The notes under the pieces were generated by a model, which was not told the origin of the DNA, did not search any database, and was given only the letters and a program-made list of their open reading frames with translations. Positions 2,819-26,163 of a stretch of DNA of 52,730 bases are shown here, one piece after another. Source of the stretch: Lachnospiraceae bacterium A4 (GTDB taxonomy: Bacteria > Bacillota > Clostridia > Lachnospirales > Lachnospiraceae); assembly GCA_000403215.2 (NCBI GenBank), contig KE159549.1, positions 108,489 to 161,218 on the forward strand, in the 5' to 3' direction. The position numbers were made by a program, and so were the translations under genes. Position 1 is the stretch's first letter. Every line of letters starts with the position of its first letter.

Positions 2819-3919
2819 ATGTTTTTTGAGGAAAAGTTAGAAGAGATAAGAATGGCAATTGATCAAATGAATGAAAGTGAAAGAATAGTAGTATGGGGAA
2901 CAGGGAGACATACGGATGAATTAATGAAATATACAAAGCTCTTATTGTATCCTAACGTGATGTTTGCAAGTAGAGATCATAGTGATGATTTATATTTTGG
3001 AAGGGCAATAACTGAAACATCAGAGTTAGACTTGAACGGGATTGACAGTATTGTAATATCATCGTATAAATTTCAGGATGAGATTGAGAAAGAAATAAGA
3101 AATAAGAAATTTAGTGGGAAAATCATAAAATTTTATAATACGGGAAGTGAAAGTGAATTTTATCTGATGCCTCATTCCGACAGTAAAAAAGGATTTTATG
3201 TACAGGGGGATTATGCGTCATGGGAGGAGGCAAAGAAACATGCAGATGGATATGATAACCAGGTTATTTTAGATAAGGTTTATAGGGCTACTTTGGAAGT
3301 GATGAACGGAAAAGCAAAGTATGAGAGGGATTCTGTTGTGTTTTATGATACAGCATATACATATCATTTGCTCACTCTGATTGGAGTAATATGCAGCCTG
3401 AAAGATACGATAAATGTTGTTGATGTCGGGGGGGCGTTAGGAAGTCTGTATTGGCAGAATAAAGATTTTTTAGATGTTTATGAGGGGAAAAATATTTTAT
3501 GGGAAATTGTCGAACATCCAAATTATGTAAAATGCGGAAGAGAAAAGATACAACATGAAAAAATTAATTTTTGGGACGATTTGAGTGATATACAACGTGC
3601 GGATATTGTGATTTTTTCAGGGGTATTGCAGTGTATTAAGGATTATGAAGTAATGGTTAAAAAGGCTATAAAATTAAGGCCTAAGTACATTTTGATAGAC
3701 AGGACAATGTTTTCGGTAAGGAGTAGAATTGCCATTCAGTATGCAGATGAGACAATATGTACAAATGCTTATCCGATAAAGATATTTGAAGAAACGGAAA
3801 TATTACAGTTAATGGAAGGTTATCATCTGAAGGTACAATTTCCATCCTGTGTGGACGGTATTTTTTATGTGGATAGACAGAGGGTTGATGTAAAATGTAT
3901 GATTTTTGAGTTGGAGTAA
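2819..3919 (+). CDS. Rossmann module fused to LIC12133/TIGR04325-type methyltransferase
   Basis: Residues about 21-115 form the locus-wide Rossmann-like module (RIVVWGTGRHTDEL, then DSIVISS). From about residue 133 the protein matches the putative methyltransferase family named after LIC12133. It shows SWEEAKKHADGYD, then YERDSVVF, the SAM-binding VVDVGGALGSLYWQ, then WEIVEHPNYV, FSGVLQCI and ILIDRT. That family is usually 250-280 residues; the extra N-terminal length here is the added module. It probably methylates a sugar of the surface glycan in the cytoplasm, but the acceptor is unknown. The ribosome site AAAAGGAG at 2802-2809 supports the ATG. Confidence 0.85.
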   Translation: MFFEEKLEEIRMAIDQMNESERIVVWGTGRHTDELMKYTKLLLYPNVMFASRDHSDDLYFGRAITETSELDLNGIDSIVISSYKFQDEIEKEIRNKKFSGKIIKFYNTGSESEFYLMPHSDSKKGFYVQGDYASWEEAKKHADGYDNQVILDKVYRATLEVMNGKAKYERDSVVFYDTAYTYHLLTLIGVICSLKDTINVVDVGGALGSLYWQNKDFLDVYEGKNILWEIVEHPNYVKCGREKIQHEKINFWDDLSDIQRADIVIFSGVLQCIKDYEVMVKKAIKLRPKYILIDRTMFSVRSRIAIQYADETICTNAYPIKIFEETEILQLMEGYHLKVQFPSCVDGIFYVDRQRVDVKCMIFELE

Positions 3920-3949
3920 TATAGAAAGTATAATCTTTATATGAATTAG

Positions 3950-4431
3950 CGATACCAAAGGAAAAAGTTCTTATTTGAAAATTTTAAGATAGATTTGGGA
4001 GAAGGTCATGTACTGCCAAGATATGAGAAATTCTATAAAATGTATGACAGTTTTTTTCGTATTTGGCACAAATGACACAAGAAAAGGAAGGAAAGTGGAA
4101 TATTGATATTGGAGCAAGTGTAGGAGATACATTAGCCGCCATATGGAATTATACCGACGATTTTGTTCTGTGCATAGAGCCGGTGAAAAAGTTTTTGGAG
4201 CTTTTGACTGATAATGTCCAACGTTTTGGAATAAATGACAAAGTATGTTTGGAGCAGGCATTTATTACAGATAATATGAATCAAATCTTTCAGACTGAAA
4301 TTTCTGAAAAAGGAACAACTGTTAAGAAAATTACACAGGATGTATGCCATGCGGTTTCTGGCAAAACATTAGATTGTCTGATAAAAGAAAATGGATTAGC
4401 ATTGAGCGAAATATTTAGAATAATGAAATAA
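3950..4431 (+). pseudogene. Broken FkbM-type methyltransferase
   Basis: Two reading frames together match an FkbM SAM-dependent methyltransferase. Bases 3950-4075 read ...LPRYEKFYKMYDSFF and then hit a stop. From 4063 the next frame reads LAQMTQEKEGKWNIDIGASVGDT. Adding one base just after the T run at 4051-4057 (for example CCG TAT for CGT AT) would join them as DSFFPYLAQM, which fits the family. The 5' end has no start codon after the stop at 3947-3949. The 3' end stops after TLDCLIKENGLAL, before the usual DxEGAE motif. The gene is thus truncated at both ends and frameshifted. The downstream frame has no convincing ribosome site. Confidence 0.8.
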
Positions 4432-4496
4432 TGCGCTAAAAAATTCATATTAGATTACGAAAGGAACAAAAATATTTACTATGAAAGGGAGAGGGT

Positions 4497-5633: not shown

Positions 5634-5668
5634 CAGAAATGTATGAATAGCAGCATGGAGGAGACAGG

Positions 5669-6844
5669 ATGCATAAAATGAATGTATTAATATATGGATA
5701 TGGGGAAACATACCAAAAAAATGTTTATTGGATTAACCAGTTATATAATATAGTAGGGATTACTGATTCTAAATTTAATATATCAAGCTGGGAAATGAAG
5801 AAATACAAAGTTGAAGATGCGGTTAATCTGGCGTTTGACATAATTTTGATAACAAGTATATTTTTTGAAGAAATCAAAGCAAGTCTGATAGGAAGGTTTA
5901 ACATAGAGGAGTCAAAAATATCCTGGTTTATGGATGAGTTTTGCAATGAACGTTGTGAAACATTCGGAGAAAAAAATCCAAACGTTATATTTTATATTTA
6001 CAGGGCACATTGGCAGGAATCAAAAAATGGATTTTACAATTTTTTTGACCGGGCTATGGCATTATATTATAAAACACGACAACTAGGATATGAATTATTA
6101 GTTGATATGAAAAATTATTATACAGAATATAGCGGATTAGATCGTTATGGCATTGTAAATGTATGGGAGGACTACTATGAACAGCCGTCTAAATATACAC
6201 TTGATGAGGCATATCAAAGTAAAAAGGTTATTTTAAGTAAGTTTGACAGTGTAGAATATAATTATTTAACACTGTCAAAAAGTGAGTATTTATCTTGCGA
6301 ATGGTGGAGGGAAACTTATGAAAATTTAGGAAAAGTGACTCATTTTACGCCAAGTCAGATGTTAAAAAATCAAATTAATAAAGAATTAAATCACCTGAAG
6401 ATGTCAGGAAAAATTTTAGGAGTATTGGCAAGAGGTACAGATTATGTTTGTTTGAAACCTAAAAATCATCCGATTCCTTTTGATACAGATTTATTAATTG
6501 ATGAATGTCAAAGCAAATTTCAGAAGGGAGAGTATAATTATATTTATTTAGCAACAGAAGATTTAAATATTTTTGAGAAGTTTAAGAAATCTTTTGGTGA
6601 AAATCTGCTTTTCACAGAACAAACAAGAGTAAAAACTGATATAAATAAGATGTTAATAGATGTAAAATTTGAAAGAGAAAATGATAATTATTTAAGAGGA
6701 TTGGAATACTGTACAGCTATAGAAGTTTTAGCAAGATGTAATTATTTATTAGCCAACTGTTATTGTTATGGTGCACTTGGAGCACTTGCTATAGGAGGGG
6801 GGAGTATTAAAAGCGAAATTCTGGATATGGGAATATATGATTGA
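5669..6844 (+). CDS. Rossmann module fused to a putative GT-B transferase (NodZ/fucosyltransferase-like)
   Basis: Residues 4-88 are the locus-wide Rossmann-like module (MNVLIYGYGETYQKN, ITDSK, DIILITS). Residues about 105-391 form a second domain with LGVLARGTDYV at 250-260, followed by HPIPFDTDLL and IYLATED. It ends with an ND..RGLEYCTAIEVLARC block. The RGTDY element and the following order resemble GDP-fucose-binding GT23/NodZ-type enzymes, where Arg and Asp contact the nucleotide sugar. I infer a sugar transferase but cannot name the donor. The stop overlaps the next gene by 8 bases, so the two are translationally coupled. GGAGGAGACAGG precedes the ATG. Confidence 0.7.
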   Translation: MHKMNVLIYGYGETYQKNVYWINQLYNIVGITDSKFNISSWEMKKYKVEDAVNLAFDIILITSIFFEEIKASLIGRFNIEESKISWFMDEFCNERCETFGEKNPNVIFYIYRAHWQESKNGFYNFFDRAMALYYKTRQLGYELLVDMKNYYTEYSGLDRYGIVNVWEDYYEQPSKYTLDEAYQSKKVILSKFDSVEYNYLTLSKSEYLSCEWWRETYENLGKVTHFTPSQMLKNQINKELNHLKMSGKILGVLARGTDYVCLKPKNHPIPFDTDLLIDECQSKFQKGEYNYIYLATEDLNIFEKFKKSFGENLLFTEQTRVKTDINKMLIDVKFERENDNYLRGLEYCTAIEVLARCNYLLANCYCYGALGALAIGGGSIKSEILDMGIYD

Positions 6845-7970
6845 AAGTGAGGAAATTAGAATAGTGAAGGTTGTATTATTTGGAACAGGAAATTATGCAA
6901 GAAATATATATTCTAAAATTGAGAAGAATCTTTCTGGACTTGATATCGTTGGATTTTGTGATAATAATTCAGATAATTGGGGAGAATGTTTTGGCAGGAG
7001 AGTATATGCGCCACATGAACTGGGGAAGGAAATAGATAAGATTATTATTTTGTCGAATCTGAATTTTGAGGAAATTAAAGACGGGTTAATATACTGGCAT
7101 AAAATACCCGAAGATAAGATTGAAAATATTTATTTTTTATTAAAGTGTTTAATGTCAGAAAAATATCAGACTTCTGAAGATTTGGATATATTGGAAACCC
7201 TAGAGTATTGGAAAAATAATCAGCTTACTGTATTTAATCAGTTTGTAAAGGAAGAAATGTTTCATGTGGTAGAATGGGATTATATAGAAAATATGCCATT
7301 TATAATATTGGAAGATAAGAAAATGTATTACCCATATGATACTAAGTTTGAAAGTTTTGAAGGTAAAAAAATTATAAGAAATGTAATGCAGGAGCAACAG
7401 GAAACATCTCCGCATTTATATATTAAAGATGATATTACGATAAATGAAGGGGATATTATTGCTGATGTTGGAGCGGCAGAAGGAGATTTTTCGATACGTT
7501 TTGTTGAAAAGGCTTCTAAAATCTATTTATTTGAGGGAGATAAAAAATGGTGGAAACCATTAAGAAAAACGTTTGAAAAATTTAAAGACAAGATAGAATT
7601 TATTAATAAATATGCAGGATATATAGATGATAATAATTTGGTTAGAATGGATACGATAATAAAGGAAAAAATAGATTTTTTGAAAATGGATGTTGAGGGA
7701 TCAGAATGTGAAGCATTATTAGGTGCAAGAAAATTATTAATTAATGGGAATGTCAAGTGTGCCATTTGCAGTTATCATAGGGCAGGGGATGAAATTGCTT
7801 TAAAAGATATTTTGAATGCTTACGGTTATAGGACTAATACATCTATGGGGTATATGCTCTATTATCATGATGCAAATATATTTTCTACTCTTGATTTTAG
7901 GCGTGGAATTGTTTATGGCAGAAAGGAAAAAGGGTTGACATTAAGAAGAGGTTATAATGAGACAAATTGA
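6837..7970 (+). CDS. Rossmann module fused to FkbM methyltransferase
   Basis: Residues about 8-92 form the Rossmann-like module (VKVVLFGTGNYARN, GFCDNNSDNWG, IIILSN). The C-terminal half, from about residue 195, is an FkbM methyltransferase. It shows the SAM-binding IADVGAAEGDFS, the acidic YLFEGD at the end of the second strand, and LKMDVEGSECEALLGA, the family's hallmark. FkbM enzymes O-methylate sugar or polyketide hydroxyls in the cytoplasm. The gene overlaps its predecessor by 8 bases and the next gene by 14, so the three form one translational unit. The middle region (95-190) matches nothing I recognise. Confidence 0.87.
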   Translation: MIESEEIRIVKVVLFGTGNYARNIYSKIEKNLSGLDIVGFCDNNSDNWGECFGRRVYAPHELGKEIDKIIILSNLNFEEIKDGLIYWHKIPEDKIENIYFLLKCLMSEKYQTSEDLDILETLEYWKNNQLTVFNQFVKEEMFHVVEWDYIENMPFIILEDKKMYYPYDTKFESFEGKKIIRNVMQEQQETSPHLYIKDDITINEGDIIADVGAAEGDFSIRFVEKASKIYLFEGDKKWWKPLRKTFEKFKDKIEFINKYAGYIDDNNLVRMDTIIKEKIDFLKMDVEGSECEALLGARKLLINGNVKCAICSYHRAGDEIALKDILNAYGYRTNTSMGYMLYYHDANIFSTLDFRRGIVYGRKEKGLTLRRGYNETN

Positions 7971-8397: not shown

Positions 8398-8457
8398 GAA
8401 GATATGGAATAGTAAATAAAAGGATTACTATGGGGAATGCCGGATGGGAGGGACTGC

Positions 8458-9125
8458 ATGGAAGTGTTTCGGGATTATGCATATTATTATAATACATTTT
8501 ATCAGGATATAGATTATCGGACAGAGGCTGGACAATTTGATATATTATTGAAAAAATATGGAGACCGTAACATTAAAACAATACTTAATTTTGGGTGTGG
8601 TACCGGAAAGCATGATATCGAATTGTCCAGATTGAGATATGAGTGTAGTGGGATTGATATGAGTCCTGCAATGATTGAAATAGTCAGAGAAAATAGTAGG
8701 AAGGAAAACGTTAGCATAAGATTTTCGGTGGCTGATATTAGAAAGTATGTATCGGTTAAAAAATATGAAGCTGTAATGGCGCTTTTCATGTATGGTATGG
8801 ACCAGGAGTATTAAGTGATAAATCTCTGGTTCGCGTAAAAGAAGTTCAGGATGAGAAATTCAAATTGATTCGTGTAGTCAGAACAATTATGCATGATAAA
8901 ACAAATACTGTAGATGTTTTTTATGAGGTTTTGGCAATTGAAAAAATATCAAATGAAACGAGAGTGATAAATGAAGTACATAATATGCGATATTTTTTCA
9001 GAGCACAATTAGAAACATTTCTAAAAGAAACTGAATTTGAGCTTATTGATAATTTGGAGTGTAAAACGCTTGAAGAAACGGTTTATAGTTCATGGACAAG
9101 TTATTTTGTTGCAAGAGCTATATGA
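8458..9125 (+). pseudogene. Broken class I SAM methyltransferase
   Basis: The start at 8458 has GGGAGGG at 8445-8451. The first part contains a good SAM motif (ILNFGCGTGKHDIELS), GIDMSPAMIE and VADIRKY, then ends at 8814. The rest continues in another frame as WYGPGVLSDKSLVRVK, then VVRTIMHDKTNTVDVFYEV and HNMRYFF, ending in SWTSYFVARAI. Intact relatives, as I recall them, carry several tens of residues between LFHV and WYGPG. Here one T is missing in the run at about 8771-8776, and the middle block is deleted, leaving FHV joined to WYGPG. The gene cannot make a working enzyme. Confidence 0.82.
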
Positions 9126-9390
9126 GATGTATTATTTGGTGGTAAGTTTGAAACAAACAAAAAACAGGCATTTTTTAGGGTGTAGCAACATAAACAGACT
9201 CGCATAGCGAGCCTTGGATACCAATATTCCCACCTTAAAACTACTTTGGCGCACCTGCACATCAAAACCAAACGAATGGGTGAATCTGATACTGATGCCG
9301 GGATGCCATAGTTGTATTTTGAGGTAGGAAAATTATATCACAAAAATTTGAAAAGCGAAAGCCGAAATAAGGTTTCATAACCCCATCGAT
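9126..9390. other. Non-coding block, possible remnant of inserted DNA
   Basis: No gene is visible between the broken methyltransferase and the next glycosyltransferase. The stretch from about 9175 to 9310 is noticeably more GC-rich than the flanking genes and contains the palindrome-like ACTCGCATAGCGAGCC. On the minus strand two frames stay open for over 100 bases but match nothing I know. It may be a relic of an inserted element or a long untranslated leader for the gene at 9419. Confidence 0.35.
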
Positions 9391-9409
9391 GCCTTTCGCA
9401 GAAAGGCGG
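9391..9409 (+). promoter_or_regulatory. Hairpin covering the ribosome site of the GT4 gene
   Basis: GCCTTTC (9391-9397) pairs perfectly with GAAAGGC (9401-9407) around the 3-base loop GCA. The ribosome site AGGCGG (9404-9409) lies in the 3' arm, 9 bases before the ATG at 9419. In the folded state the site would be hidden, so translation initiation here may be controlled. Confidence 0.55.
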
Positions 9410-9418
9410 ATTATAAAT

Positions 9419-10585
9419 ATGAAAAAATGTAAAATTGCAATAATATTAGCTACTGAGCCCTATTTTGGTGGAGGGCATCAATATGCAATGCTAGTGGCTG
9501 AATGTTTAGCACAAAATGCGGGTTTAACATATGAACTTATTGCTATATGCTATAATCGCTTTTGGCGAAGATGGTGTCGAAAACATCAAGTAAGATGTAT
9601 GGATAGAGTGATTCCATCTTTGAAACAAAGAGAAAAAATAGTTAATTACAAATTTCCTTATTTATGTCAAATCTATAATACATATATGACACCTATGGGA
9701 AAGTTGCTGCGCAAGGAAGGGATTGATATTTTATTTTCTACGCAACAGTTTTTCTTTATTCCTAATTATAGTGCAAAAATTATTGTACCAGTTCATGATC
9801 TGATGCATAGATACGAAACTCGTTTTCCAGAAGTTATGGGAGCGTATAGTGACAGAGAAATAGATATGAAAAGTTACATGAGATATGCATGTGTTATATT
9901 AACTGATTCAAAGTTGGGGAAAAGTCAACTTTTGGAGTCATATAGGGCAAAAAGGAAAAAAGTACCGCATATTATTAGCCTGCCTTTTGTTGCTCCAGAA
10001 TATATATATAATGCAAATGAAGAATACATAGATGTTCCTGATAGATATATTTTTTATCCGGCACAATTTTGGAATCACAAGAATCATATTAATTTAGTAA
10101 AAGCCATTCGGACATTAAGGGATAGGATAGAAGATATACACTTAATTTTAGTTGGTTCTGAAAAGAATTGCTGTAAAAAAATAAAAAAATATATAATAAA
10201 TAATGGCTTAGAGAATAATGTGACTATTTTGGGTTATGTCAGTAATGGAAATATTGCATATTTGTATAAACATGCAGTGGGTATGGTTATGCCATCATAT
10301 TTTGGACCTACAAACATTCCTCCACTTGAGGCAATGTTGTTAGGGTGTCCAGTTGCTGTTTCTGACAAATATGCGATGCCAGAACAAGTGGGAAATGCAG
10401 GATTGTTATTTAATCCAGATTCTCCAGAAGAAATAGCATCTTGCATTGAAAAACTTTGGATGGATGAAAATCTAAGAGAACGATTGAAGAAGCTTGGTTA
10501 TAAGAGGGTCAAGCAATGGAATAAAGAAAAGTTTAATAAGAGGCTATTGAAAGTAGTTAAGGAAGTAGAACAGGTCAAAATTTAA
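9419..10585 (+). CDS. Glycosyltransferase family 4 (GT-B retaining)
   Basis: The 388-residue product has the GT4 layout. The N-terminal acceptor domain carries a glycine-rich loop (YFGGGHQYAM). The C-terminal donor domain contains FYPAQFWNHKNHINLVKA, then LILVGS, VTILGYVSNGNIAYLY and the nucleotide-sugar site PSYFGPTNIPPLEAMLLGCPV. The EX7E-type acidic residues lie in that last block. I place the start at 9419, behind AGGCGG, rather than at an upstream ATG at 9389 whose first ten codons fall in the hairpin. It likely adds a hexose or deoxyhexose to the cytoplasmic glycan. It lacks the Rossmann module found in many of its neighbours. Confidence 0.88.
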   Translation: MKKCKIAIILATEPYFGGGHQYAMLVAECLAQNAGLTYELIAICYNRFWRRWCRKHQVRCMDRVIPSLKQREKIVNYKFPYLCQIYNTYMTPMGKLLRKEGIDILFSTQQFFFIPNYSAKIIVPVHDLMHRYETRFPEVMGAYSDREIDMKSYMRYACVILTDSKLGKSQLLESYRAKRKKVPHIISLPFVAPEYIYNANEEYIDVPDRYIFYPAQFWNHKNHINLVKAIRTLRDRIEDIHLILVGSEKNCCKKIKKYIINNGLENNVTILGYVSNGNIAYLYKHAVGMVMPSYFGPTNIPPLEAMLLGCPVAVSDKYAMPEQVGNAGLLFNPDSPEEIASCIEKLWMDENLRERLKKLGYKRVKQWNKEKFNKRLLKVVKEVEQVKI

Positions 10586-10743
10586 ATATGCATACTATGT
10601 GGAATTTATATAAAAAAATTTATCCATGTAAATACTATGAGTAGATTTGTGTAGAAAATAATGCAATAGCAGTAAAGGATTATAATAGATTTGTTTGGAT
10701 GTGGAATTGTAGGTAAAGAAAAAGCAGATACGAGGCAATACAG

Positions 10744-11586
10744 ATGTTATATGGGAATGTTCGAAAGGAATATGGAATAAAGCAAAAAACAAAACGAAAT
10801 CATAGAATCGAAAAAAGGGCAGTGCTATTGATTACGTCATCTATTGTACCACAGGAAAAAAGATTTTTGATCTTGAAGGAACCCAAACAGCGCTTGTCTC
10901 AATATCTGGATAGTTTGAGGTTTTATATTGTTCATACAAATCTTAATAATATTGTATTATGCGATAATAGTGGATTCAATTTTCCAGTTGATGAAATGAC
11001 TGCATTGGCCAAAGAATATGGGAAAAAACTTGAAATTATTCAGTTTGTTGGAGATAAAAAGAAAATTATAGAGAATGGAAAAGGATATGGAGAGGGAGAG
11101 ATTATAGAATATGCCTTGCATCATAGTTTACTATTAAAAAAATCATCATATTTTATCAAGGTTACAGGACGGTTGAAAGTTACTAATATCGATCAGATAA
11201 TAGAAAGGATAGATTTAACTAAAATATATATGAATAAAAATATTCATAATTTTCGAAAATCTGAAAAAAGTACAAAGATGAATACTGTGCTATACGGAAT
11301 CCCTAAAAAGATTTATATGGCTGTTTTTGTAGATGCATATAAAAATGTTTGTGATAAAAGGGGAATATATTTAGAGCATGTGTTTGCAAAGCGGATCATT
11401 GAAAATGGATTAATCATATATAATATTCCGCACTTTCCTGTCATAGATGGAATAAGTGGTTCATTAGGAAATAGATATCAGGAAACAATTGGCTGGGAGA
11501 GATGTTTGTATGAACTGCTTTCCAGATGGTCACTTTTTAATTGTGATTTATTACGGGACACAGTTACTTATACATTTGATAGATAG
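10744..11586 (+). CDS. Putative GT-A glycosyltransferase of uncharacterised family
   Basis: The 280-residue product opens with a basic segment and then a strand-rich GT-A-like core. Visible are LLITSSIVPQ, RFYIVHTNLNNIVLCDNSG (nucleotide-binding-like), then GYGEGEIIEYALHHSLLL, YFIKVTGRLKVTNID and a C-terminal FPVIDGISGS. The KxTGRL segment sits where related capsule enzymes carry their donor site, but there is no classical DXD. The family is recurrent in capsule and glycoprotein loci; the specificity is unknown. GAGG lies 8 bases before the ATG. It is separated by 158 bases from the GT4 gene and by 38 from the fucosyltransferase. Confidence 0.62.
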   Translation: MLYGNVRKEYGIKQKTKRNHRIEKRAVLLITSSIVPQEKRFLILKEPKQRLSQYLDSLRFYIVHTNLNNIVLCDNSGFNFPVDEMTALAKEYGKKLEIIQFVGDKKKIIENGKGYGEGEIIEYALHHSLLLKKSSYFIKVTGRLKVTNIDQIIERIDLTKIYMNKNIHNFRKSEKSTKMNTVLYGIPKKIYMAVFVDAYKNVCDKRGIYLEHVFAKRIIENGLIIYNIPHFPVIDGISGSLGNRYQETIGWERCLYELLSRWSLFNCDLLRDTVTYTFDR

Positions 11587-11624
11587 AGTTGAGTGTAAAA
11601 AATCTATAGATCGTGAGGGGTGCA

Positions 11625-12506: not shown

Positions 12507-12523
12507 AGTATGGAGTGAAGGAT

Positions 12524-13216: not shown

Positions 13217-13217
13217 T

Positions 13218-14129: not shown

Positions 14130-14208
14130 GAAAACATTATGCAGCTAGTTTTAGGCAAGAATGTATACATTGGTGTAAAATTCGATTTAGAAAGTGGAGG
14201 AAAATCAC

Positions 14209-15889: not shown

Positions 15890-15905
15890 AAATCGGAGGT
15901 TCAGG

Positions 15906-16937: not shown

Positions 16938-16973
16938 GTTTCAATCTTTGAATATGCTGAGCTGGTGCGTACT

Positions 16974-18089: not shown

Positions 18090-18146
18090 TGAATTTTATC
18101 GGGACAAAAATTTCAATCAGGGTCAGAAGAGTAAAAGAGGTATACT

Positions 18147-19295
18147 ATGGAAAAAACTTATAATGGCAGAGTAAGCATAATTGTTCCTATTTATCAAGGG
18201 AAGAAATACATCCCCAAATTAATTAAAATGGCAGAAATGTGTCAGGAAAAGGCACAAAATCAACAAGGAATAGAACTGATCCTGTCCAACGATGATCCGC
18301 ATGAGAAAATAGAGGAATCTCTTTTCTCTGATACGATAACGATTCATATCCTGAATACAGAAATAAACAGAGGCATTCAGGCGGCCAGAATTCGGGGCCT
18401 TGAAGCAGCAAATGGTGATTTTGTCGTCTTTCTTGATCAGGACGATATTTTATATCCAGATTATATCAACAGCCAGTTATCCCACCTAGGAGATGCCGAT
18501 ACCGCAGTATGCAGATGTATCCATGAGAATCAGCAGTTCTATAACGCTGACAGGAAGTTTGAAGAAGTCATATCAAAAGGCTACATGATGCAAAAAGGCA
18601 ATCCCATCATCTCTGCAGGACAGGTACTGATACGCCGCACATCAGTACCGAAAGTATGGACAGAGAACATCATGAAAACAAATTGCGCAGATGACTATCT
18701 GCTTTGGCTCTGTATGATGGCACAGGGGGCAAAGTTTGCCTTAAATCAGGACATTTTATTTGAGCACGTGGTTCACGGGAACAATTTATCATTGGACAGT
18801 CGGCGTGAATTATCATCTCTGGAGGAAATGTGTGATATTCTCTCCCAAAACAGCGTGTTTGACGAACGGGGAATGAAGCAGATCAGAAGTATGTGTCAGC
18901 ATGTGTTGTCTGAGAGAATAGGGCTTTTGGAAAAGTTCAGAGAGATGTTTTTTGTGCTGAATAAAATGGCAGTCTGTAAAGAGGCGGGGTATACAGTAGG
19001 AAAATATTTACAATCACAAGGGATACACCGAGTTTGTATTTATGGAGCTGGCTATATTGGAAAGCGGCTGGCAGGAGAACTAAAAGAATGTAATATAGAG
19101 ACCGCCTTTTTTATAGACAGAAATGCACATTACCTGACAGAAGAAATTCCGGTTTATCGGTTAGAAGAAGCCCCTAAAGAGGTAGATGCAGTCATTATTT
19201 CTTTAGTGCAAAATTATGATTCAGTCAGAAATGAACTTAGAACAAAATATAAGACAAAGATATATGCAATTCGGGAAATTATAGAGGCCATATAG
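18147..19295 (+). CDS. GT2 glycosyltransferase with C-terminal Rossmann module
   Basis: Residues 9-220 form a GT2 domain: VSIIVPIYQGKKYI, NRGIQAARIRGLEAA and the metal site VFLDQDDILY. A later segment, NCADDYLLWL, is the acceptor-side acidic block. Residues 296-382 are the Rossmann-like module: VCIYGAGYIGKRLAGEL, FFIDRNAHY and AVIISLV. AAAAGAGG precedes the ATG. The architecture is the same as in the genes at 14687 and 19303, yet the catalytic domains differ clearly from one another, so these are not recent tandem copies. Confidence 0.9.
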   Translation: MEKTYNGRVSIIVPIYQGKKYIPKLIKMAEMCQEKAQNQQGIELILSNDDPHEKIEESLFSDTITIHILNTEINRGIQAARIRGLEAANGDFVVFLDQDDILYPDYINSQLSHLGDADTAVCRCIHENQQFYNADRKFEEVISKGYMMQKGNPIISAGQVLIRRTSVPKVWTENIMKTNCADDYLLWLCMMAQGAKFALNQDILFEHVVHGNNLSLDSRRELSSLEEMCDILSQNSVFDERGMKQIRSMCQHVLSERIGLLEKFREMFFVLNKMAVCKEAGYTVGKYLQSQGIHRVCIYGAGYIGKRLAGELKECNIETAFFIDRNAHYLTEEIPVYRLEEAPKEVDAVIISLVQNYDSVRNELRTKYKTKIYAIREIIEAI

Positions 19296-19302
19296 AAAGA
19301 AA

Positions 19303-20484
19303 ATGGCAGGACGAGAGGATTTGGCTGTGGATATGAAGTTAAGTATTATTGTACCAGTATACAACACAAAGCCCTACTTGGACGTGTGTCTGCAAAGTAT
19401 TATTGGACAAACCTATCAAAATCTGGAGATTCTCATAATAGATGATGGTTCTACAGATGGGTCAGATATAGTTTGTAAATCCTATGCTGAGAAAGATCAA
19501 CGTATTTTATACATATGGCAGGAAAATAAAGGTTTGATAGGCGCACGGCACACAGGTGTTGAGCATGCTTCCGGTGATTTTCTGATGTTTGTTGACTCAG
19601 ATGACTGGATTGATAGCGGTATGGCTGCGTTTTTGGCAGAGCAGATACAGGATAGCGATCTGGTTACGACAGGAGTGCATTATGAAACGAAGCCCAATAT
19701 TGTGACAGAATACCTAGATCAGTATGAGGAAGGGGCATATCGCGGAGCAGATAAAGCATTTTTGCTGAAAACAATGCTTTATGATCAGGAATCCGATACA
19801 TTGCAGCGGATGACGCCTTGGATTTGGAACAAGTTATATCGTACGAAAATAGCAAGACAGGTCTATCAGAGTATAGATACAGATAATGCTTTTGCGGAGG
19901 ACGGCGTATTTTTATATAACTATCTCATTCTTACCGGGGCAGTGAAAGTCAGTCACAAGTGTTTTTATCATTACCGCTATCGCTCAGATTCTATGTTTCA
20001 TGGTGGAAATCCCAACATGCTGTCAGATATCAATCAAGCATATCTGGCATTGCAGCCCAATTTTGCGAGGCATCCATTTCATGAAGATTTACTGTCACAG
20101 TTACAGTGCTGGGTAACAGTCACCGCAGTGATGGCAGTAAATGGCGGAATGGGATTTACACCGCAGTGCCAGATTCCTGAATTTATTCTTGACACAGATG
20201 GGTTGAAGGGAAAAAAGATTGTGCTTTATGGTGCTGGAAAGGCGGGAAAAGACTATTTCAGACAGCTTACGAAGATGGGGTATGAAGTTGTTCTCTGGGT
20301 TGACAGGAATTATTGTAATGAAGAACATGTAAAGAATCCGCAGGAAATCCTGAGAGCAGAATATGATGTCATATTGATAGCGGTTAGCAGACCCGAATAT
20401 GTAAAGAGTATCAGGCAGTTATTACAAAGTCTGGGAATTGCAGAGGAAAAGATGATGTGGAAACAGCCTGTCAGAATGATTTAA
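19303..20484 (+). CDS. GT2 glycosyltransferase with C-terminal Rossmann module
   Basis: The GT2 domain begins KLSIIVPVYNTKPYLDVCL, with LEILIIDDGSTDGS, NKGLIGARHTGVEHA and MFVDSDDWID as the metal site. FAEDGVFLYNYL is the downstream acidic block. Residues 306-393 are the Rossmann-like module: IVLYGAGKAGKDYFRQL, LWVDRNY and DVILIAVSRPEY, ending WKQPVRMI. That last tail is closely matched by an orphan remnant at 22449-22586. The start may be ATG 19303 or ATG 19336; the latter gives the usual N-terminus. Confidence 0.9.
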   Translation: MAGREDLAVDMKLSIIVPVYNTKPYLDVCLQSIIGQTYQNLEILIIDDGSTDGSDIVCKSYAEKDQRILYIWQENKGLIGARHTGVEHASGDFLMFVDSDDWIDSGMAAFLAEQIQDSDLVTTGVHYETKPNIVTEYLDQYEEGAYRGADKAFLLKTMLYDQESDTLQRMTPWIWNKLYRTKIARQVYQSIDTDNAFAEDGVFLYNYLILTGAVKVSHKCFYHYRYRSDSMFHGGNPNMLSDINQAYLALQPNFARHPFHEDLLSQLQCWVTVTAVMAVNGGMGFTPQCQIPEFILDTDGLKGKKIVLYGAGKAGKDYFRQLTKMGYEVVLWVDRNYCNEEHVKNPQEILRAEYDVILIAVSRPEYVKSIRQLLQSLGIAEEKMMWKQPVRMI

Positions 20485-20511
20485 ATAGTTTAAGAAGAGA
20501 GGAACTGCAAT

Positions 20512-21366
20512 ATGCATTCTAGTTCATATCTGAAAATGGAGTGGTTTAAGAACCAATATCTTATTACACATAGAAATGAAAAACTAAAGATTCTTGATGT
20601 TGGATCCTACAATATGGGCGGCAGTTATAAACCGCTTTTCAATGAAACTGAATGGACATATACAGGCATGGATATGGTACAGGGGTCAGGAGTGGATATT
20701 GTTGTTCAGAACTGTTATGAATGGAAAGAAATAGAAAATTCAGTTTACGATGTGGTTATTTCAGGTCAGGCGTTTGAACATATGCCATATTTCTGGCTGG
20801 TTATGCAGGAGATTGCACGCGTCTTAAAACCGGATGGCATATGCTGCATTATAGCACCGAGTGCAGGTCCAGAGCATAGGTGTCCAGTGGACTGCTATCG
20901 ATTTTATACAGATGGTATGATTGCACTGGCAGAATATGTCAATATGAATGTGTTACATGCATTTACAGGAGAAGGCATAAGGAATCATAACAGAGACATC
21001 TTTCAGGATAACAGTGGAATATGGCATGATTCAATGCTGATTGCACAAAAGGGCTGGCGTTATCAGATATTAGACACTACAGGAAAAAAGAAAGTAGCTG
21101 CGTGGGGGACAGGAACGCTGGCTGCAAAATTGTGGAATAGGGTGCCTAATCTGGATATTCACATTGTGGTGTTTGTGGATAATGATATGACAAGGCAGGG
21201 AAGTTTTTTTCGCGGAATCAAGGTGATAGCACCCGACGAATTATGGAGGATAGATTATGACATAGTTGTCATATGTTCTCACTATGTCAAAGAGATAAAA
21301 GAACAGCTGATGAGGGAGCTGCAAATAGATATAAAGAGAATAGTTGTGTGTGAGGATTTCATATGA
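20512..21366 (+). CDS. Class I methyltransferase with C-terminal Rossmann module
   Basis: Residues 20-175 form a SAM methyltransferase: LKILDVGSYNMGGSYKPLF (motif I), YTGMDMVQGSGVDIV (motif II), YDVVISGQAFEHM (motif IV) and ARVLKPDGICCIIAPSAG. Residues 193-284 are the Rossmann-like module, with KKVAAWGTGTLAAKLW, VVFVDNDM and DIVVICSHYVKEI. GAGAGGA precedes the ATG. The stop overlaps the next start in an ATGA arrangement, so the two methyltransferases are co-translated. The acceptor is unknown. Confidence 0.88.
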   Translation: MHSSSYLKMEWFKNQYLITHRNEKLKILDVGSYNMGGSYKPLFNETEWTYTGMDMVQGSGVDIVVQNCYEWKEIENSVYDVVISGQAFEHMPYFWLVMQEIARVLKPDGICCIIAPSAGPEHRCPVDCYRFYTDGMIALAEYVNMNVLHAFTGEGIRNHNRDIFQDNSGIWHDSMLIAQKGWRYQILDTTGKKKVAAWGTGTLAAKLWNRVPNLDIHIVVFVDNDMTRQGSFFRGIKVIAPDELWRIDYDIVVICSHYVKEIKEQLMRELQIDIKRIVVCEDFI

Positions 21367-22448
21367 TGCTGGGATTGAGAGATAAGCATATGATAGAAAA
21401 GATACAATATATGTATAGCAAGCTGGGAGATGCACTTTCCAAGGAAATATATATGGACAGGCTGTGTTACAGTATAACACATGATAACAGATATCTTGAG
21501 GATATGATCGGCAGGACAGTAAGAAATCAGGAAGAATGGAAAGGATTCTGCCAGTCTCTGATAGTAAAAGCAGTGGATTCTAAGATGTATTTGTTTGGCG
21601 CCGGTGTATGGGGAACAATACTCTATAATGAGACGAAAAAGTTTTTACAGTGGCAGGGCGTTTTGGATAATCATCCTATGGGAAAAACACTGGGGAATCT
21701 TAGTATTTATTCATTAGAACAATTCATAGATGTTTATGATGATGATGCAGTTATTATTATTACATCATATAAAAATAGTGCTGAAATGTTCACACAGTTA
21801 CAGGAGATAGGAATTTCCAGGAAACAAATATTGGATGCAGCCAGCATAATTTACAAATTGACAGAAGGAGCAATATATTTTGATTTGGAAGAATTAAATC
21901 CACAGAAACAATATGAGATCTTTGTAGATGCAGGCGGATATGACGGGCTTACAACAAAAGGATTTTTAAACTGGTGTAATAGAAAAGGATATTCATACTG
22001 TTTTGAGGCAGATAATACGAATTTGCTGTCTGCAGAATACAATTTGGCTGAGGATATGGAATGCTGTGAAATCGTGCCCAAAGCAGTATGGTCCCAAAGC
22101 TGTTATTTGTCAATGTGTATGAAAGGAAATTGTGCATCCGCTGTCATCAAAGATTCAGGAAGTAATAATATTCAAAGGGTGGAGACAGTGACGCTGGATG
22201 ATTATCTTGGAGATAAGCCAGTTACATATATAAAAATGGATGTTGAAGGTGCGGAGCTGGAAGTTATAAAAGGAGCAAAAAATATAATTATGAGGCAGCA
22301 TCCAAGACTTGCTGTGAGTATTTATCATAAGATAGAGGACATTTGGGAAATTCCGGCTTTGATTTTGGAATACTATCCAGGGTATCAATTGTATCTGCGT
22401 CATTATTCATTTTCGCATTATGATACAGTTTTATATGCGATACCTTAG
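21363..22448 (+). CDS. Rossmann module plus FkbM methyltransferase
   Basis: After a helical N-terminus of about 70 residues comes the Rossmann-like module (74-160): MYLFGAGVWGTILYNE, GVLDNHPMGKTLG and AVIIITSYKNSAEMF. The FkbM domain follows: YEIFVDAGGYDGLTT (motif I), YCFEADNTN (acidic residue after strand 2), then VTLDDYL and YIKMDVEGAELEVIKGA, ending AVSIYHKIEDIWEIP. Module-then-FkbM order matches the gene at 6837, although the two differ throughout. Start ATG 21363 overlaps the previous stop. Confidence 0.9.
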   Translation: MMLGLRDKHMIEKIQYMYSKLGDALSKEIYMDRLCYSITHDNRYLEDMIGRTVRNQEEWKGFCQSLIVKAVDSKMYLFGAGVWGTILYNETKKFLQWQGVLDNHPMGKTLGNLSIYSLEQFIDVYDDDAVIIITSYKNSAEMFTQLQEIGISRKQILDAASIIYKLTEGAIYFDLEELNPQKQYEIFVDAGGYDGLTTKGFLNWCNRKGYSYCFEADNTNLLSAEYNLAEDMECCEIVPKAVWSQSCYLSMCMKGNCASAVIKDSGSNNIQRVETVTLDDYLGDKPVTYIKMDVEGAELEVIKGAKNIIMRQHPRLAVSIYHKIEDIWEIPALILEYYPGYQLYLRHYSFSHYDTVLYAIP

Positions 22449-22586
22449 CAACTGTATTATAAGTATAATCTGATCCTAACAGCCGTCATCAGACAGGAAT
22501 ACGCTGACAGTTTGATTCGTGTTTTGTTAGACATGGGGATAGACCAGAAGCAGACCGTATGGAAGAAGCCAGTGAGAACATTCTAA
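22449..22586 (+). pseudogene. Orphan C-terminal tail of a Rossmann-module protein
   Basis: In the frame opening right after the stop of the FkbM gene, the DNA reads YNLILTAVIRQEYADSLI, then VLLDMGIDQKQTVWKKPVRT and a phenylalanine before TAA at 22584-22586. This aligns without gaps with the last 40 residues of the GT2 protein at 19303 (YDVILIAVSRPEY...WKQPVRMI), with about 17 of 40 identical by eye. There is no start codon and no ribosome site. It is the leftover end of a gene whose body is gone. Confidence 0.75.
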
Positions 22587-22621
22587 AGTACATGTTTGCA
22601 AAAACAAGGGAGGGCAGCAGG

Positions 22622-24037
22622 ATGCACTTTTTACTTTTCGGCACAGGTGATTATTATAACAGGTTTAAGAAATGGTTTCCCAGAGAAAATGTTCTGGCGC
22701 TGCTTGATAATTCTCCTGTCAGGCAGCATACCTTAGTTGATGGAATAGAGGTTTTGCCGCCGTCGGAGGGGATAAAACTAGATTATGACAGTATTGTCAT
22801 TTTAAGTTTTTATATAAAGGAAATGCGGCAGCAGCTTTTAGAACTTGGTGTGGAAGAACGCAGAATCGTGCATTTTTATGATCTGCACTGGCTGATATAT
22901 AATGATTCAGCGAAAAGGGATATACAATATTATGCATGTGCGGATAAAATGATTCTGTCTGATAACAGGGGGCATAACAGAATTTTGCTCCTGTCACACG
23001 ATCTGGAACTGGGTGGACCGGCTCTGGCAGTATTTCATGCCGCAAAAGTGTTGAAACACACTGGCTATCAAGTGGTGGTTGCTTCTATGCAGGATGGTTT
23101 ATTGAGAGATAAAATGGTACAAGAAACAATTCCTGTGGTGGTGGATGTGAATCTTCAGATAGAAACTATGGTGAATGCAGATTGGATAACAAATTTTGAT
23201 TTAATCATCTGTAATACAATCAATTACCATATATTTTTGACAGAGCGTGCTGAGAATGTACCAGTTCTCTGGTGGCTTCATGATTCAGAATTTTTTTATC
23301 ATGGTGTCAGACAGGAAGTTTTGCGTATGATTTCAACAGATCATCTTACAGTCTGTTCTGTTGGAAATGTACCAGCACAGGCGATTCATACATTTTTACC
23401 TGAACTGCCTGTGAAAGAGCTGCTGTATGGAGTGGAAGATACTGTATACGGGGAGGATTATGTGTTGTCTTGTGATGAAGTGAGGGACAAAATTCGCTTT
23501 GTTACAATCGGTTACATAGAGAATAGGAAGGGACAGGATATTTTAATACAGGCTGTCAGATTATTGCCGGAGGAGCTAAGGCAGAAGGCAGAATTTTATC
23601 TAGTGGGGCAGAAATCTTCTATGTTTGCAGGAAAACTGTTAGAGCAGACACGATTAATGCCAGAGATTTTTTTTATTGGAACGGTGGACAGGCAGCGTAT
23701 CAATCAACTGTTAAAGAAGGCGAATGTGATGATTTGTCCGTCGAGAGAAGATCCAATGCCTACGGTTTGCGCAGAAGCCATGATGCATTCTGTACCCTGT
23801 ATTTTATCTGATGCAGCAGGTACAGCAGCATACGTTGAAGATGGCGTCAACGGGCTTGTGTTTCAGAGTGAAAATGTGCAGGAACTTTCGGAAAAAATTA
23901 AATGGTGTATGAATCATATGACGCAGCTGAAAAAAATGGGAGAGGAATCCAGACGAGTATATGAGGCATATTTTTCCATGAGTGTATTTGAGCAGAATCT
24001 TTTGGGCATTGTGGAAAAGAGCATCTTACAATCCTGA
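22622..24037 (+). CDS. Rossmann module fused to GT4 glycosyltransferase
   Basis: I place the start at ATG 22622, which has GGGAGGG 7 bases upstream. An earlier in-frame ATG at 22559 lies inside the orphan tail of a lost gene. Residues 1-95 are the Rossmann-like module (MHFLLFGTGDYYNRF, LALLDNSP, DSIVILSFYIKEM). The rest is GT4: ILLLSHDLELGGPALAVFHA, then VPVLWWLHDSEFF, FVTIGYIENRKGQDILIQA, FFIGTVDRQRINQLL and the donor site PSREDPMPTVCAEAMMHSVPC. Total length is about 471 residues. Confidence 0.9.
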   Translation: MHFLLFGTGDYYNRFKKWFPRENVLALLDNSPVRQHTLVDGIEVLPPSEGIKLDYDSIVILSFYIKEMRQQLLELGVEERRIVHFYDLHWLIYNDSAKRDIQYYACADKMILSDNRGHNRILLLSHDLELGGPALAVFHAAKVLKHTGYQVVVASMQDGLLRDKMVQETIPVVVDVNLQIETMVNADWITNFDLIICNTINYHIFLTERAENVPVLWWLHDSEFFYHGVRQEVLRMISTDHLTVCSVGNVPAQAIHTFLPELPVKELLYGVEDTVYGEDYVLSCDEVRDKIRFVTIGYIENRKGQDILIQAVRLLPEELRQKAEFYLVGQKSSMFAGKLLEQTRLMPEIFFIGTVDRQRINQLLKKANVMICPSREDPMPTVCAEAMMHSVPCILSDAAGTAAYVEDGVNGLVFQSENVQELSEKIKWCMNHMTQLKKMGEESRRVYEAYFSMSVFEQNLLGIVEKSILQS

Positions 24038-24108
24038 TTGGTACGCCTGTGAAAGCAGGAAGATGGAGTTTCGTGTGTCATTGCTTTGAGGATGGAGAAC
24101 ATACAGTA

Positions 24109-26163
24109 ATGGATAATTTGAAACAGATTTTTAGTGATTATATTGATTGTCCGATTGCATTATATGGGCTTGGAATCGAAACAGAGAAGGTGCTGCTTAT
24201 ATTAGAAGGGACATTTCATATTGTTGGGCTGCTGGATAGTTTCCGAGAGGAGGGAGAGCTTTATGGAAAGCGGATTATACCCTTATCTGAATGTGTCCAA
24301 CAGGAAGTAAAACTGATTATTGTTGTAGCGCGTCCCGGTTCGTGCAGGGCAATAGCAAAAAAAATTGGGAACTATTGTATTGAGCATCAAATACAATTGA
24401 TGGATGTCAGGGGTAAAGATTTATGTATGACAAAGCAGGATAGCTATCGTTTTACCAAACAGGGAATTAGCAGAAAACAGTTGGCTGGGCTGGTTGATGA
24501 CAAAGATGCAGTCAGCTTCGATTTGTTTGACACACTGATTATGCGTCAGGTGCTTTTCCCGTCAGATGTAGTGGAACTGACAGAAAACAGATTCAAGAAA
24601 AAGGGTATTTATATAGAAAATTTTCTGCAAAAAAGACAGCAGGCTGAAAAAGAATTATCTATAAAATATGCTCCCTCGTTAATAGACATATATCAATTTG
24701 TATTGGAACATTCTTCGCACGTCTTGGCGAGCGCGGAGGAACTGGCGCAGGTGGAATGGGAAATAGATTATGAACTGGTGACAGCAAGACAGGAGATGGT
24801 TGATTTTGCCGCAGAAATTTATAGAAGAGGGAAGCCTGTATATATTACAACTGATACTTATTATAGCAGGAACCAAATAGAGCAATTGTTTGCAAAATGC
24901 GGGATTACATGCTATACAGATCTCTTGGTGTCCTCCGAATATAAGACGGGAAAAACACAGAAGCTTTTCTGTCATCTAAGGGATATACTACAGGGAAATT
25001 CGTGTGTTCACATAGGAGATGACTTGGCTGTTGACGTGGAAAGCGCCGACAGATGCGGGCTCTGTGGCTGTCAGATTTACAGTGGAGTAGATTTGTTTGA
25101 GATGACTGGTTATCTTGGCATGTGGGAATATATTGAAAGTCTGTCGTCAAGGATAAAACTTGGAATGTTTGTGGCAAGGTTGTTTAACAGTCCATTTCAG
25201 TTTGAGACGCGAAATATGCAGCAAAGTGTCTGCAATGCATATGATGTTGGATATCTTTTTATGGCACCGATCATAACAGATTTTGTACTTTGGTTTAAGA
25301 AACAGGTTATGAAGAAGAGTATCAAAAATGTTTGGTTCTGTGCGAGGGATGGATATTTGATAAAAAAGCTTTATGACATGTTATGTGGTGATGAATTATC
25401 CGTTTATTTTCTATCTTCACGTGCGGCTGCCATCAGAGCAGGGATTGAGAATGAAGCAGATATTGCGTATGTGGATACAATGAAATTCAGCGGTACATTA
25501 TCCCAACAACTGCGAGATCGGTTTGGAATCATTGTGAATGAAGATGTGTTAACAGGAAAAAAGCTCGTTGATTTTTCGCAGGATATTATAGAAAAAGCCA
25601 AACGATATAGGCATCATTATCAAAAGTATATTGACAGTATTGCAAAGGAATCAGGAGATATTGCTTTTTTTGATTTTGTGGCAAAAGGTACTTGTCAGAT
25701 GTTTGTCAACAGGCTTGTGGACAACAAGCTGAGGGGATTGTATTTTCTTCAGATAGAAAAGTCATTTATGAAAGATAAGGCGCTTGACATTACGGCATTT
25801 TATGAGCAGGATGAATCACGGGAAAATGCCATATATGAGGACTATTATATTCTGGAAACGGTTTTGACTTCTCAAGAACCATCTATTGTGGGATTTCATG
25901 AAAACGGAACACCATGTTATACCCGTGAAACAAGAACACAGCAGGAGCTGAGATGCATTGAAAAAATGCAGGACGGTATAACAGATTATTTCCTGAAATA
26001 TTGTAGTTTGTGTCCCAAGGACAAAACAGAGGCAGATCAGAAACTTGACGAGAAACTTCTAAATCAAATACATCGTATTCGGATTCTGGATGAGGACTTT
26101 TGGGCGTTGAAGGTGGAGGATGCTTTTTTTAACAGGATGACAAATATGTCAGATCTGATCTAG
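24109..26163 (+). CDS. Rossmann module fused to HAD-family protein (COG5610-like) with a long C-terminal domain
   Basis: From ATG 24109 the product is about 684 residues. Residues 14-105 form the Rossmann-like module (PIALYGLGIETEKVLL, GLLDSFRE, LIIVVARPG). A HAD domain follows with all four motifs: FDLFDTLI at 137-144, TTDTYYS at 247-253, the lysine of YKTGKTQK at about 282 and HIGDDLAVD at 302-310. The last 330 residues contain NVWFCARDGYLIKKLYDML, YFLSSRAAAIRAG and IAFFDFVAKGTCQMFVN, shared with COG5610-type proteins of glycan loci. Hydrolase or phosphotransferase activity is plausible. The GTG at 24049 has no ribosome site. Confidence 0.85.
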   Translation: MDNLKQIFSDYIDCPIALYGLGIETEKVLLILEGTFHIVGLLDSFREEGELYGKRIIPLSECVQQEVKLIIVVARPGSCRAIAKKIGNYCIEHQIQLMDVRGKDLCMTKQDSYRFTKQGISRKQLAGLVDDKDAVSFDLFDTLIMRQVLFPSDVVELTENRFKKKGIYIENFLQKRQQAEKELSIKYAPSLIDIYQFVLEHSSHVLASAEELAQVEWEIDYELVTARQEMVDFAAEIYRRGKPVYITTDTYYSRNQIEQLFAKCGITCYTDLLVSSEYKTGKTQKLFCHLRDILQGNSCVHIGDDLAVDVESADRCGLCGCQIYSGVDLFEMTGYLGMWEYIESLSSRIKLGMFVARLFNSPFQFETRNMQQSVCNAYDVGYLFMAPIITDFVLWFKKQVMKKSIKNVWFCARDGYLIKKLYDMLCGDELSVYFLSSRAAAIRAGIENEADIAYVDTMKFSGTLSQQLRDRFGIIVNEDVLTGKKLVDFSQDIIEKAKRYRHHYQKYIDSIAKESGDIAFFDFVAKGTCQMFVNRLVDNKLRGLYFLQIEKSFMKDKALDITAFYEQDESRENAIYEDYYILETVLTSQEPSIVGFHENGTPCYTRETRTQQELRCIEKMQDGITDYFLKYCSLCPKDKTEADQKLDEKLLNQIHRIRILDEDFWALKVEDAFFNRMTNMSDLI

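Follow-up and report, generated by a model that had tools for sequence, protein, structure and literature searches.

The 13 genes between positions 2819 and 26163 of a 52,730-nucleotide window of Lachnospiraceae bacterium A4 (contig KE159549.1; the window is the whole stretch of DNA that was analyzed) each encode a segment of about 85–95 residues, here called the module. An initial annotation had read these segments as one recurring Rossmann-like domain, and our leave-one-out analysis bears this out. Held-out proteins scored 16.3–64.0 bits against a profile of the other 12 segments, with the lowest score for the 24049 gene, while the best of 200 shuffles per protein reached 3.4–7.9 bits and no shuffle (0/200) scored as high as the real protein for any of the 13. 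Ten module-free window proteins, used as a further control, scored at most 1.9 bits with the module profile. These scores rule out chance convergence, with the caveat that the segment limits were chosen by hand and that all 13 segments were in the alignment from which one was then removed. Identity to the first segment is 15–27% in the alignment of the window segments. On sequence grounds, all 13 segments are one homologous domain.

The placement of the module also agrees with the initial annotation (Table 1): it lies on the N-side of a TIGR04325/LIC12133-type protein, a NodZ/FUT8-like protein, two FkbM proteins, a zinc-ribbon methyltransferase, a GT4 and a HAD-like protein, on the C-side of three GT2 proteins, an RgpF protein and one class I methyltransferase, and once it occurs alone. 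Some details needed correction. The longest open reading frames start slightly upstream of four annotated gene starts (14194, 16965, 22559, and 24049 instead of 14209, 16974, 22622, and 24109; the others were kept), and two modules described as N-terminal begin further in, at residue 72 in the 21363 gene and at residue 33 in the 24049 gene. The protein annotated as a module standing alone indeed has no catalytic domain, yet it includes a hydrophobic N-terminal stretch and a helix besides the module. The zinc ribbon of the 15906 gene is visible by eye only (Pfam E 0.83).

Table 1. Modules of the window and module regions of the genome. Bit scores are leave-one-out scores unless a family is named; pLDDT, predicted local distance difference test.
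Feature	Position	Strand	Residues and evidence
Module, N-side of TIGR04325/LIC12133-type methyltransferase (gene 2819–3919)	2876–3139	+	20–107; 28.9 bits; TIGR04325 E 3e-50
Module, N-terminus of NodZ/FUT8-like protein (gene 5669–6844)	5675–5959	+	3–97; 31.4 bits; FUT8_N_cat E 4e-4 (Pfam, below cut-off)
Module, N-terminus of FkbM methyltransferase (gene 6837–7970)	6864–7136	+	10–100; 49.0 bits; FkbM E 6e-8
Stand-alone protein: hydrophobic N-terminal stretch, long helix, module	14194–14697	+	Relatives in other Lachnospiraceae
Module of stand-alone protein	14422–14694	+	77–167; 36.6 bits; AlphaFold pLDDT mostly 97–98
Module, C-terminus of GT2 (gene 14687–15889)	15623–15874	+	313–396; 26.4 bits; GT2 E 7e-35; Val for Asp at strand 2 end (alignment)
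Module, N-terminus of methyltransferase with zinc-ribbon-like stretch (gene 15906–16937)	15909–16184	+	2–93; 32.3 bits; PglD_N 29.8 bits versus cut-off 23.4
Module, C-terminus of RgpF-type protein (gene 16965–18089)	17832–18083	+	290–373; 29.9 bits; RgpF E 4e-50; Val for Asp at strand 2 end (alignment)
Module, C-terminus of GT2 (gene 18147–19295)	19020–19289	+	292–381; 46.5 bits; 40-residue joining helix in model
Module, C-terminus of GT2 (gene 19303–20484)	20206–20466	+	302–388; 42.7 bits
Module, C-terminus of class I methyltransferase (gene 20512–21366)	21082–21360	+	191–283; 64.0 bits
Module before FkbM methyltransferase, behind 71-residue N-terminal stretch (gene 21363–22448)	21576–21854	+	72–164; 28.0 bits; FkbM E 3e-14
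Module, N-side of GT4 (gene 22559–24037)	22619–22882	+	21–108; 35.4 bits; GT4 E 3e-31
Module, N-side of HAD-like protein (gene 24049–26163), most divergent of the 13	24145–24429	+	33–127; 16.3 bits; TIGR02253 HAD E 6e-8, below cut-off
Four module regions of the genome	Window (C23); C1 ~584–621 kb; C2 65–103 kb; C12 384–416 kb

Thirteen copies is the correct count for the window but an undercount for the genome. The 13-segment profile gives 58 matches at E ≤ 0.01 in the 6.96-Mb genome, all within four regions and none outside them at this threshold, in a genome that must hold many ordinary dehydrogenases. The 58 include one fragment (a 51-residue frame) and, by eye, one NeuD-like acyltransferase; a profile retrained on these regions gave 64 matches at E ≤ 1e-3 in the fetched stretches. 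A search across the Lachnospiraceae, which the initial annotation had proposed as a check, found matches at E ≤ 1e-3 in 77 of 150 genomes of the family (strain A4 included); 28 of the 150 have at least three, and the highest count apart from A4 is 19. A phylum-wide sample contained 106/299 genomes with a match and 12/299 with three or more. The weak single matches elsewhere include true Rossmann enzymes, and the three scanned were KARI (locus L118), a DUF2520 protein (L109), and Rex (L115), all caught by the wider profile. Cross-hits of this profile at L110, L113, and L116 are suspected to be FlaA1-like middle domains, and it misses divergent modules such as L123_3690 and L035_2288, noticed by eye. 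Among the sets used, A2 comprises 106 of 111 prepared rows and A6 comprises 82 rows from 116 candidates. A scan for the stand-alone form named 77 loci, mostly from Lachnospiraceae or Blautia, Butyrivibrio, Herbinix, Anaerosacchariphilus, and Eubacterium, plus one Treponema metagenome-assembled genome (MAG). Named commensals with module matches include Eubacterium plexicaudatum ASF492 (27) and Butyrivibrio proteoclasticus P6B7 (9). The Treponema sp. MAG RUI307 (G448, L215) holds 23 module matches over several contigs. Gene transfer or mis-binning is a likelier explanation of this MAG than a spirochete origin, which was rejected because 36 of 120 genomes in the phylum of the MAG (itself included) match and 3 do so at least three times.

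AlphaFold predicts a confident Rossmann-like domain in the 14194 protein, and the structural neighbors of the module model are Rossmann proteins, in tied rows. Among solved structures, the best profile match is the FlaA1-type N-domain 3nkl (E 5e-13), with VioB at E 5e-7 and Rex and CAC2185-N also among the relatives; chains of the WbaP accessory domain match more weakly (E 1e-4). This sustains the earlier claim of a single fold akin to PglD_N-type Rossmann domains. PglD itself is not among the 50 structural-neighbor matches listed, which excludes nothing. A second claimed likeness, to the C-terminal domain of C-methyltransferases (PF08484), holds only in part: at E ≤ 1e-3 this family is not matched anywhere in the A4 genome, and it is matched in one of 14 control genomes, but it overlaps the module of methyltransferase L090 in another genome and is matched by 4 of 95 C-type fusion proteins.

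Compared with named families, the module is most often below threshold. PglD_N (PF17836) exceeds its cut-off only in the 15906 gene product, the other 12 window proteins being below 23.4 bits or not listed at E ≤ 1; the whole genome has 12 matches at E ≤ 1, two above the cut-off, of which the second is a 228-residue NeuD-like frame. The module has the Rossmann-like fold with a glycine loop that characterizes PglD_N, as seen in the AlphaFold model and its Rossmann neighbors. Like PglD_N of the PglD/NeuD/VioB acetyltransferases, it includes some weakly matching copies as well as the VioB match, but unlike PglD_N, it has no left-handed helix acyltransferase as a partner in the window, whose 13 module proteins match no acyltransferase family. 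For C2185-like_N (PF22674), the best window score is 18.4 bits versus a cut-off of 27, which L035:11493–12383 of the same genome does reach; the module shares the fold of residues 1–98 of PDB 2g6t, which we take to be CAC2185 of Clostridium acetobutylicum, but unlike that family, the window proteins have no DUF1919 match. Unlike Rex, whose NAD(H)-binding domain it resembles, the module is not accompanied by the Rex DNA-binding domain PF06971, which is not listed for any of the 13 window proteins at E ≤ 1. PF13727 has no Pfam match at E ≤ 1 in these 13 either. This WbaP/FlaA1-type CoA_binding_3 domain (PDB 3nkl, 8t53) is attached to phosphoglycosyl transferases or dehydratases, whereas the partners of the module bear about 30 other family labels, with the module at one end or the other and in many copies per genome. 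Across 193 fusions, PglD_N was matched in 17 at E ≤ 1e-3 (10/98 N-type and 7/95 C-type) and C2185-like_N in 9. Altogether, profile comparison places the segments, as one Rossmann-like accessory domain, in the superfamily of the N-domains of FlaA1/WbpM-type dehydratases (PF13727), PglD/NeuD/VioB (PF17836), CAC2185 (PF22674), and the NAD domain of Rex. The module is thus a new form within a known domain superfamily, found in an unusually promiscuous setting and unnamed by the family databases used; it is not described in the titles or abstract beginnings of the open-licence PMC literature searched.

To describe the partners, we assembled 127 stretches with 1749 distinct genes (identical proteins were dropped, and some named loci are thus without genes). 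In this set, 612 genes carry 620 modules: 248 N-terminal, 234 C-terminal, 117 in proteins of <205 residues, which may include fragments of longer genes, 8 multiple, and 5 central. With partners labeled by best BLAST match, the terminus of the module depends on the partner family. GT2 proteins have it at the C-terminus 125 times, at the N-terminus twice, and in multiple copies four times; FkbM (31/31) and radical SAM (25/26) proteins have it at the N-terminus, and WbsX (14/14) and RgpF (12/12) proteins at the C-terminus. GT4 (20 N, 9 C, 1 multiple) and HAD (5 N, 6 C) occur both ways.

The promiscuous fusion that the initial annotation described extends well beyond the window. Partner tallies cover 193 of 195 proteins (98 N-type, 95 C-type; best 25 of 66 and best 25 of 52 families), and the partner parts of the 193 form 50 BLAST groups. 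These are not 50 families, since GT2, RgpF, radical SAM, and Methyltransf_24 recur and three groups are cross-hits of the KARI/DUF2520/Rex type. A member was scanned singly for 46 of the 50 groups, all except 1, 4, 13, and 26; the names of groups 1 and 4 (radical SAM, WbsX) were taken from the tallies. Family labels of the partners include GT2, GT4, GT8, GT-D, WbsX, RgpF, TOD1_MUCI70, DUF5672, DUF4422, Gly_transf_sug, Caps_synth, NKWYS, and MptE-like, the last of which is Maf-related. Also among them are LicD (either end), CDP-glycerol glycerophosphotransferase, FkbM, Methyltransf_11 and _24 types, TylF, radical SAM, PIG-L, GNAT, hexapeptide acyltransferases, WcbI, DUF1919, AP_endonuc_2, FrhB, and cytidylyltransferase. 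With the TIGR04325, FUT8-like, and HAD-type proteins of the window, the labels total about 30, some of them related by fold. Radical_SAM was matched in 22/98 N-type fusions of the family-level set and is absent among the 13 window fusions.

Enzymes that make sugar nucleotides are nearly missing from the fusions. Loci with at least four module genes contain 540 genes with the module and, between them, 249 others of at least 150 residues. Of these module-free genes, a random 110 (best 25 of 108 families) included Epimerase (7), NTP_transferase (6), DegT (5), Epimerase_2 (5), GT4 (13), and GT2 (11). Epimerase, NTP_transferase, DegT, and Epimerase_2 each match at most 2/98 N-type and 1/95 C-type fusions, and none was matched by the scanned members of the 46 groups. 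Because these supply families are near absent from fusions yet present among module-free neighbors, we conclude that the usual partners of the module are transferases and tailoring enzymes, not enzymes of sugar-nucleotide synthesis, but many glycosyltransferase genes of the same loci are without it.

The module follows its partner far more than its locus. In a similarity test of 599 of the 620 modules (partner labels "other" and "ALONE" omitted, then "ALONE-TM" too), modules with the same partner at different loci had a similarity of 0.682, versus at most 0.612 in 300 permutations, while modules with different partners at one locus had 0.568, versus a permuted mean of 0.553 (standard deviation 0.014, highest 0.590). 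WbsX, RgpF, and HAD give a strong partner signal, FkbM (0.588 versus 0.564) and GT2 (0.640 versus 0.570) a small one. A tree of 551 modules, in which label changes are not numbers of fusion events, has 105 changes of partner (lowest of 60 shuffles, 233), 106 of terminus (216), and 398 of locus (410, a slight signal). Because the modules group by partner and hardly by locus, whole fusion genes seem to move between loci, with the module staying with its enzyme, and recent local amplification within the cluster is not supported. An arrangement in which the C-terminal module of one gene abuts the N-terminal module of the next was also rejected: the 51 such pairs exceed the 32.9 expected, but C–C (73 versus 30.7) and N–C (58 versus 32.4) pairs are raised as much, so the excess reflects clustering only.

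These results bear on the initial suggestion that the module has a docking or cofactor-sensing role that holds the enzymes in one complex. As a docking adaptor, each module would bind other modules and assemble the soluble enzymes of a locus, with a hydrophobic stand-alone copy as membrane tether. The preponderance of module genes in module-rich loci (540 versus 249) fits such assembly, as do chains of several enzymes, e.g., L037:7101–10580 in the C12 region of the same genome, which encodes 1159 residues in the order methyltransferase, module, cytidylyltransferase, module, Caps_synth. In the module parts of the four regions of strain A4, none of the proteins has as many as three hydrophobic segments, and PF02397 transferases lie on other contigs. 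In addition, the helix-plus-module unit of the stand-alone protein is the unit that ends GT2 proteins: the stand-alone profile (A5) fits the C-terminus of these proteins as well, with its positions 20–159 matching the end of the 18147 gene product, whose full-length model (pLDDT 93.1, predicted template modeling score 0.82) joins catalytic domain and module by a helix at residues 240–279. However, locus-specific interfaces between the enzymes of one locus would predict likeness within loci, and hardly any is seen, although a generic contact between modules would be compatible with this; conserved polar residues lie at the nucleotide loop (by position in sequence, not mapped on coordinates).

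The spread of the stand-alone form also speaks against docking, as its full-length hydrophobic version occurs in only 5 of the 19 genomes rich in modules (a further one is truncated where its contig ends) and in two of the four A4 regions. Twelve aligned proteins from eight genomes share its arrangement; Tyr84, Gly85, Gly90, and Asp109 do not vary among them, and Trp59 hardly does. Because N-terminal hydropathy is modest in some members (19-residue maximum 1.25–2.43) and pLDDT is about 50 over the first 30 residues of the 14194 protein, membrane insertion is uncertain. Docking in one complex is thus not established, and we consider it unlikely, though it ranks next after nucleotide sensing with pairing.

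The sensing half of the suggestion is favored by conservation of the GxGxxG motif and of the Asp that ends strand 2: across 599 modules, Gly85 is kept in 98% and Asp109 in 82%. These conservation figures are raised by selection, since members were found by profiles and the pattern used to scan for stand-alone loci includes the Tyr-Gly of the loop. We tentatively favor, as the most likely of the readings considered, a nucleotide-binding control domain that probably dimerizes, by analogy with the accessory domain of WbaP. The data show homology of the segments, a predicted Rossmann-like fold, a conserved pocket motif, copies confined to four regions of the A4 genome, and partners that are transferases or enzymes that modify glycans. 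The related accessory domain of WbaP is reported to bind UMP, UDP, and UTP, to form most dimer contacts, and to be linked to UMP inhibition (PMC10942596). By analogy, a nucleotide, most likely uridine mono- or diphosphate (UMP/UDP) or a UDP-sugar, with NAD(H) as an alternative, would bind at the GxGxxG loop and strand 2 Asp; the module would pair with another copy; and binding would tune the attached glycan enzyme, as proposed for WbaP.

Several observations weigh against this control domain. The best Foldseek E value is only 6e-3, with structural rows tied. The profile matches of generic Rossmann enzymes equal or exceed that of WbaP (dihydrodipicolinate reductase 2e-6, an AroE fusion 2e-5, STEAP4 2e-5, KARI 3e-5), STEAP4 is the top row (8e-6) with the 13-segment profile, and the uridine precedent is therefore one of several. 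In WbaP, UMP may also act at the active site, and UDP-Gal destabilized the domain (PMC10942596). The models of the module proteins are monomeric. A cytidylyltransferase sits inside L037_7101 and a NeuD-like acyltransferase (L033_5208, by eye) also bears the module, both exceptions of the supply type. Finally, Asp109 is Val in 91% of 12 RgpF-type and 85% of 7 DUF4422-type modules, and with a pocket that varies in this way, it is doubtful that all modules share one ligand. The two module types at the strand 2 end, Asp and Val, are largely fixed by partner class, in the window (15623–15874, 17832–18083) and at other loci.

This class-specific change, together with the likeness of modules by partner, is what would be expected of a substrate handle, in which the module grips the nucleotide of a nucleoside diphosphate (NDP)-sugar while the catalytic domain alters the sugar, with methylation, acylation, and radical chemistry at the NDP-sugar level. 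The PglD N-domain grips the nucleotide part of an NDP-linked sugar, and partners of the module include methyltransferases, radical SAM proteins, acyltransferases, PIG-L, and LicD. A handle is quite improbable, however: the stand-alone class, which has no catalytic domain, retains Asp109 in 98% of 84, and 48 of 95 C-type proteins match GT2, enzymes that hold their own nucleotide site. More improbable still is a ligand-free leftover, an old fused Rossmann domain retained for folding or solubility. Sequence divergence (15–27% identity, as above), the loss of Asp or the third Gly in some classes, and the generic Rossmann similarity are in keeping with it, but the high conservation of Gly85 and Asp109 and the variety of enzyme families that carry the module, at one end or the other, are not. 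Nucleotide control with pairing therefore stays first in our ranking, followed by docking, the handle, and the leftover.

The surroundings of the modules were compared with known glycan loci. An ordinary Wzx/Wzy capsule was rejected: PF02397 transferases occur only on contigs C4 and C37, WecA/MraY-type initiators and flippases not having been searched by family. The proteins encoded among the module genes of the fetched A4 regions all have fewer than three hydrophobic segments. A flagellin glycosylation island is not supported as the context either, with flagellin genes on C3, on C39, and at 712 kb of C12, some 300 kb away from the modules of that contig; MptE-like partners do occur. Two enzymes adjoining the window cluster match models of the ribulose-phosphate epimerase and IspD/ribitol-phosphate cytidylyltransferase types, below cut-offs. 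Positions 8437–14129 form a module-free block between two module blocks, with GT4, GT11, and GT2 genes by eye (8437, 10744, and 13218 were scanned). Two short frames without a module resemble gene remnants, an FkbM-like one at 4063–4431 (TIGR01444 E 4e-7, below cut-off) and a class I methyltransferase at 8437–8814. The protein of 1550–2713, matched by no Pfam (E ≤ 1) or NCBIfam (E ≤ 1e-3) family, and that of L032:10411–11625 resemble each other and a propeller by eye, and each adjoins module genes of its region. Three of the four module regions have, inside or next to them, 581-residue frames with identical first 40 residues, transposase-like by eye (L033:1493, L036:6754, L039:3987).

To our knowledge, little is known of how surface glycans are built and controlled in gut Lachnospiraceae. 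We put forward, as a rather unlikely but broader possibility, that Lachnospiraceae have a distinct class of glycan loci without Wzx/Wzy-type machinery, in which the majority of transferases and tailoring enzymes would share a single kind of nucleotide-gated adaptor domain. These adaptors would pair with each other and with a membrane-anchored copy, forming an interchangeable assembly line that would recruit enzymes by gain of the tag. Descriptions of such fusion proteins tend to name just the catalytic half, because Pfam's nearest models see few copies of the module (17 and 9 of the 193 fusions). About 60 copies in the A4 genome, on partners as diverse as GT2, radical SAM, FkbM, LicD, and HAD proteins, are a general clue to how such polymers may be controlled or assembled, and the module may serve as a marker for these loci.

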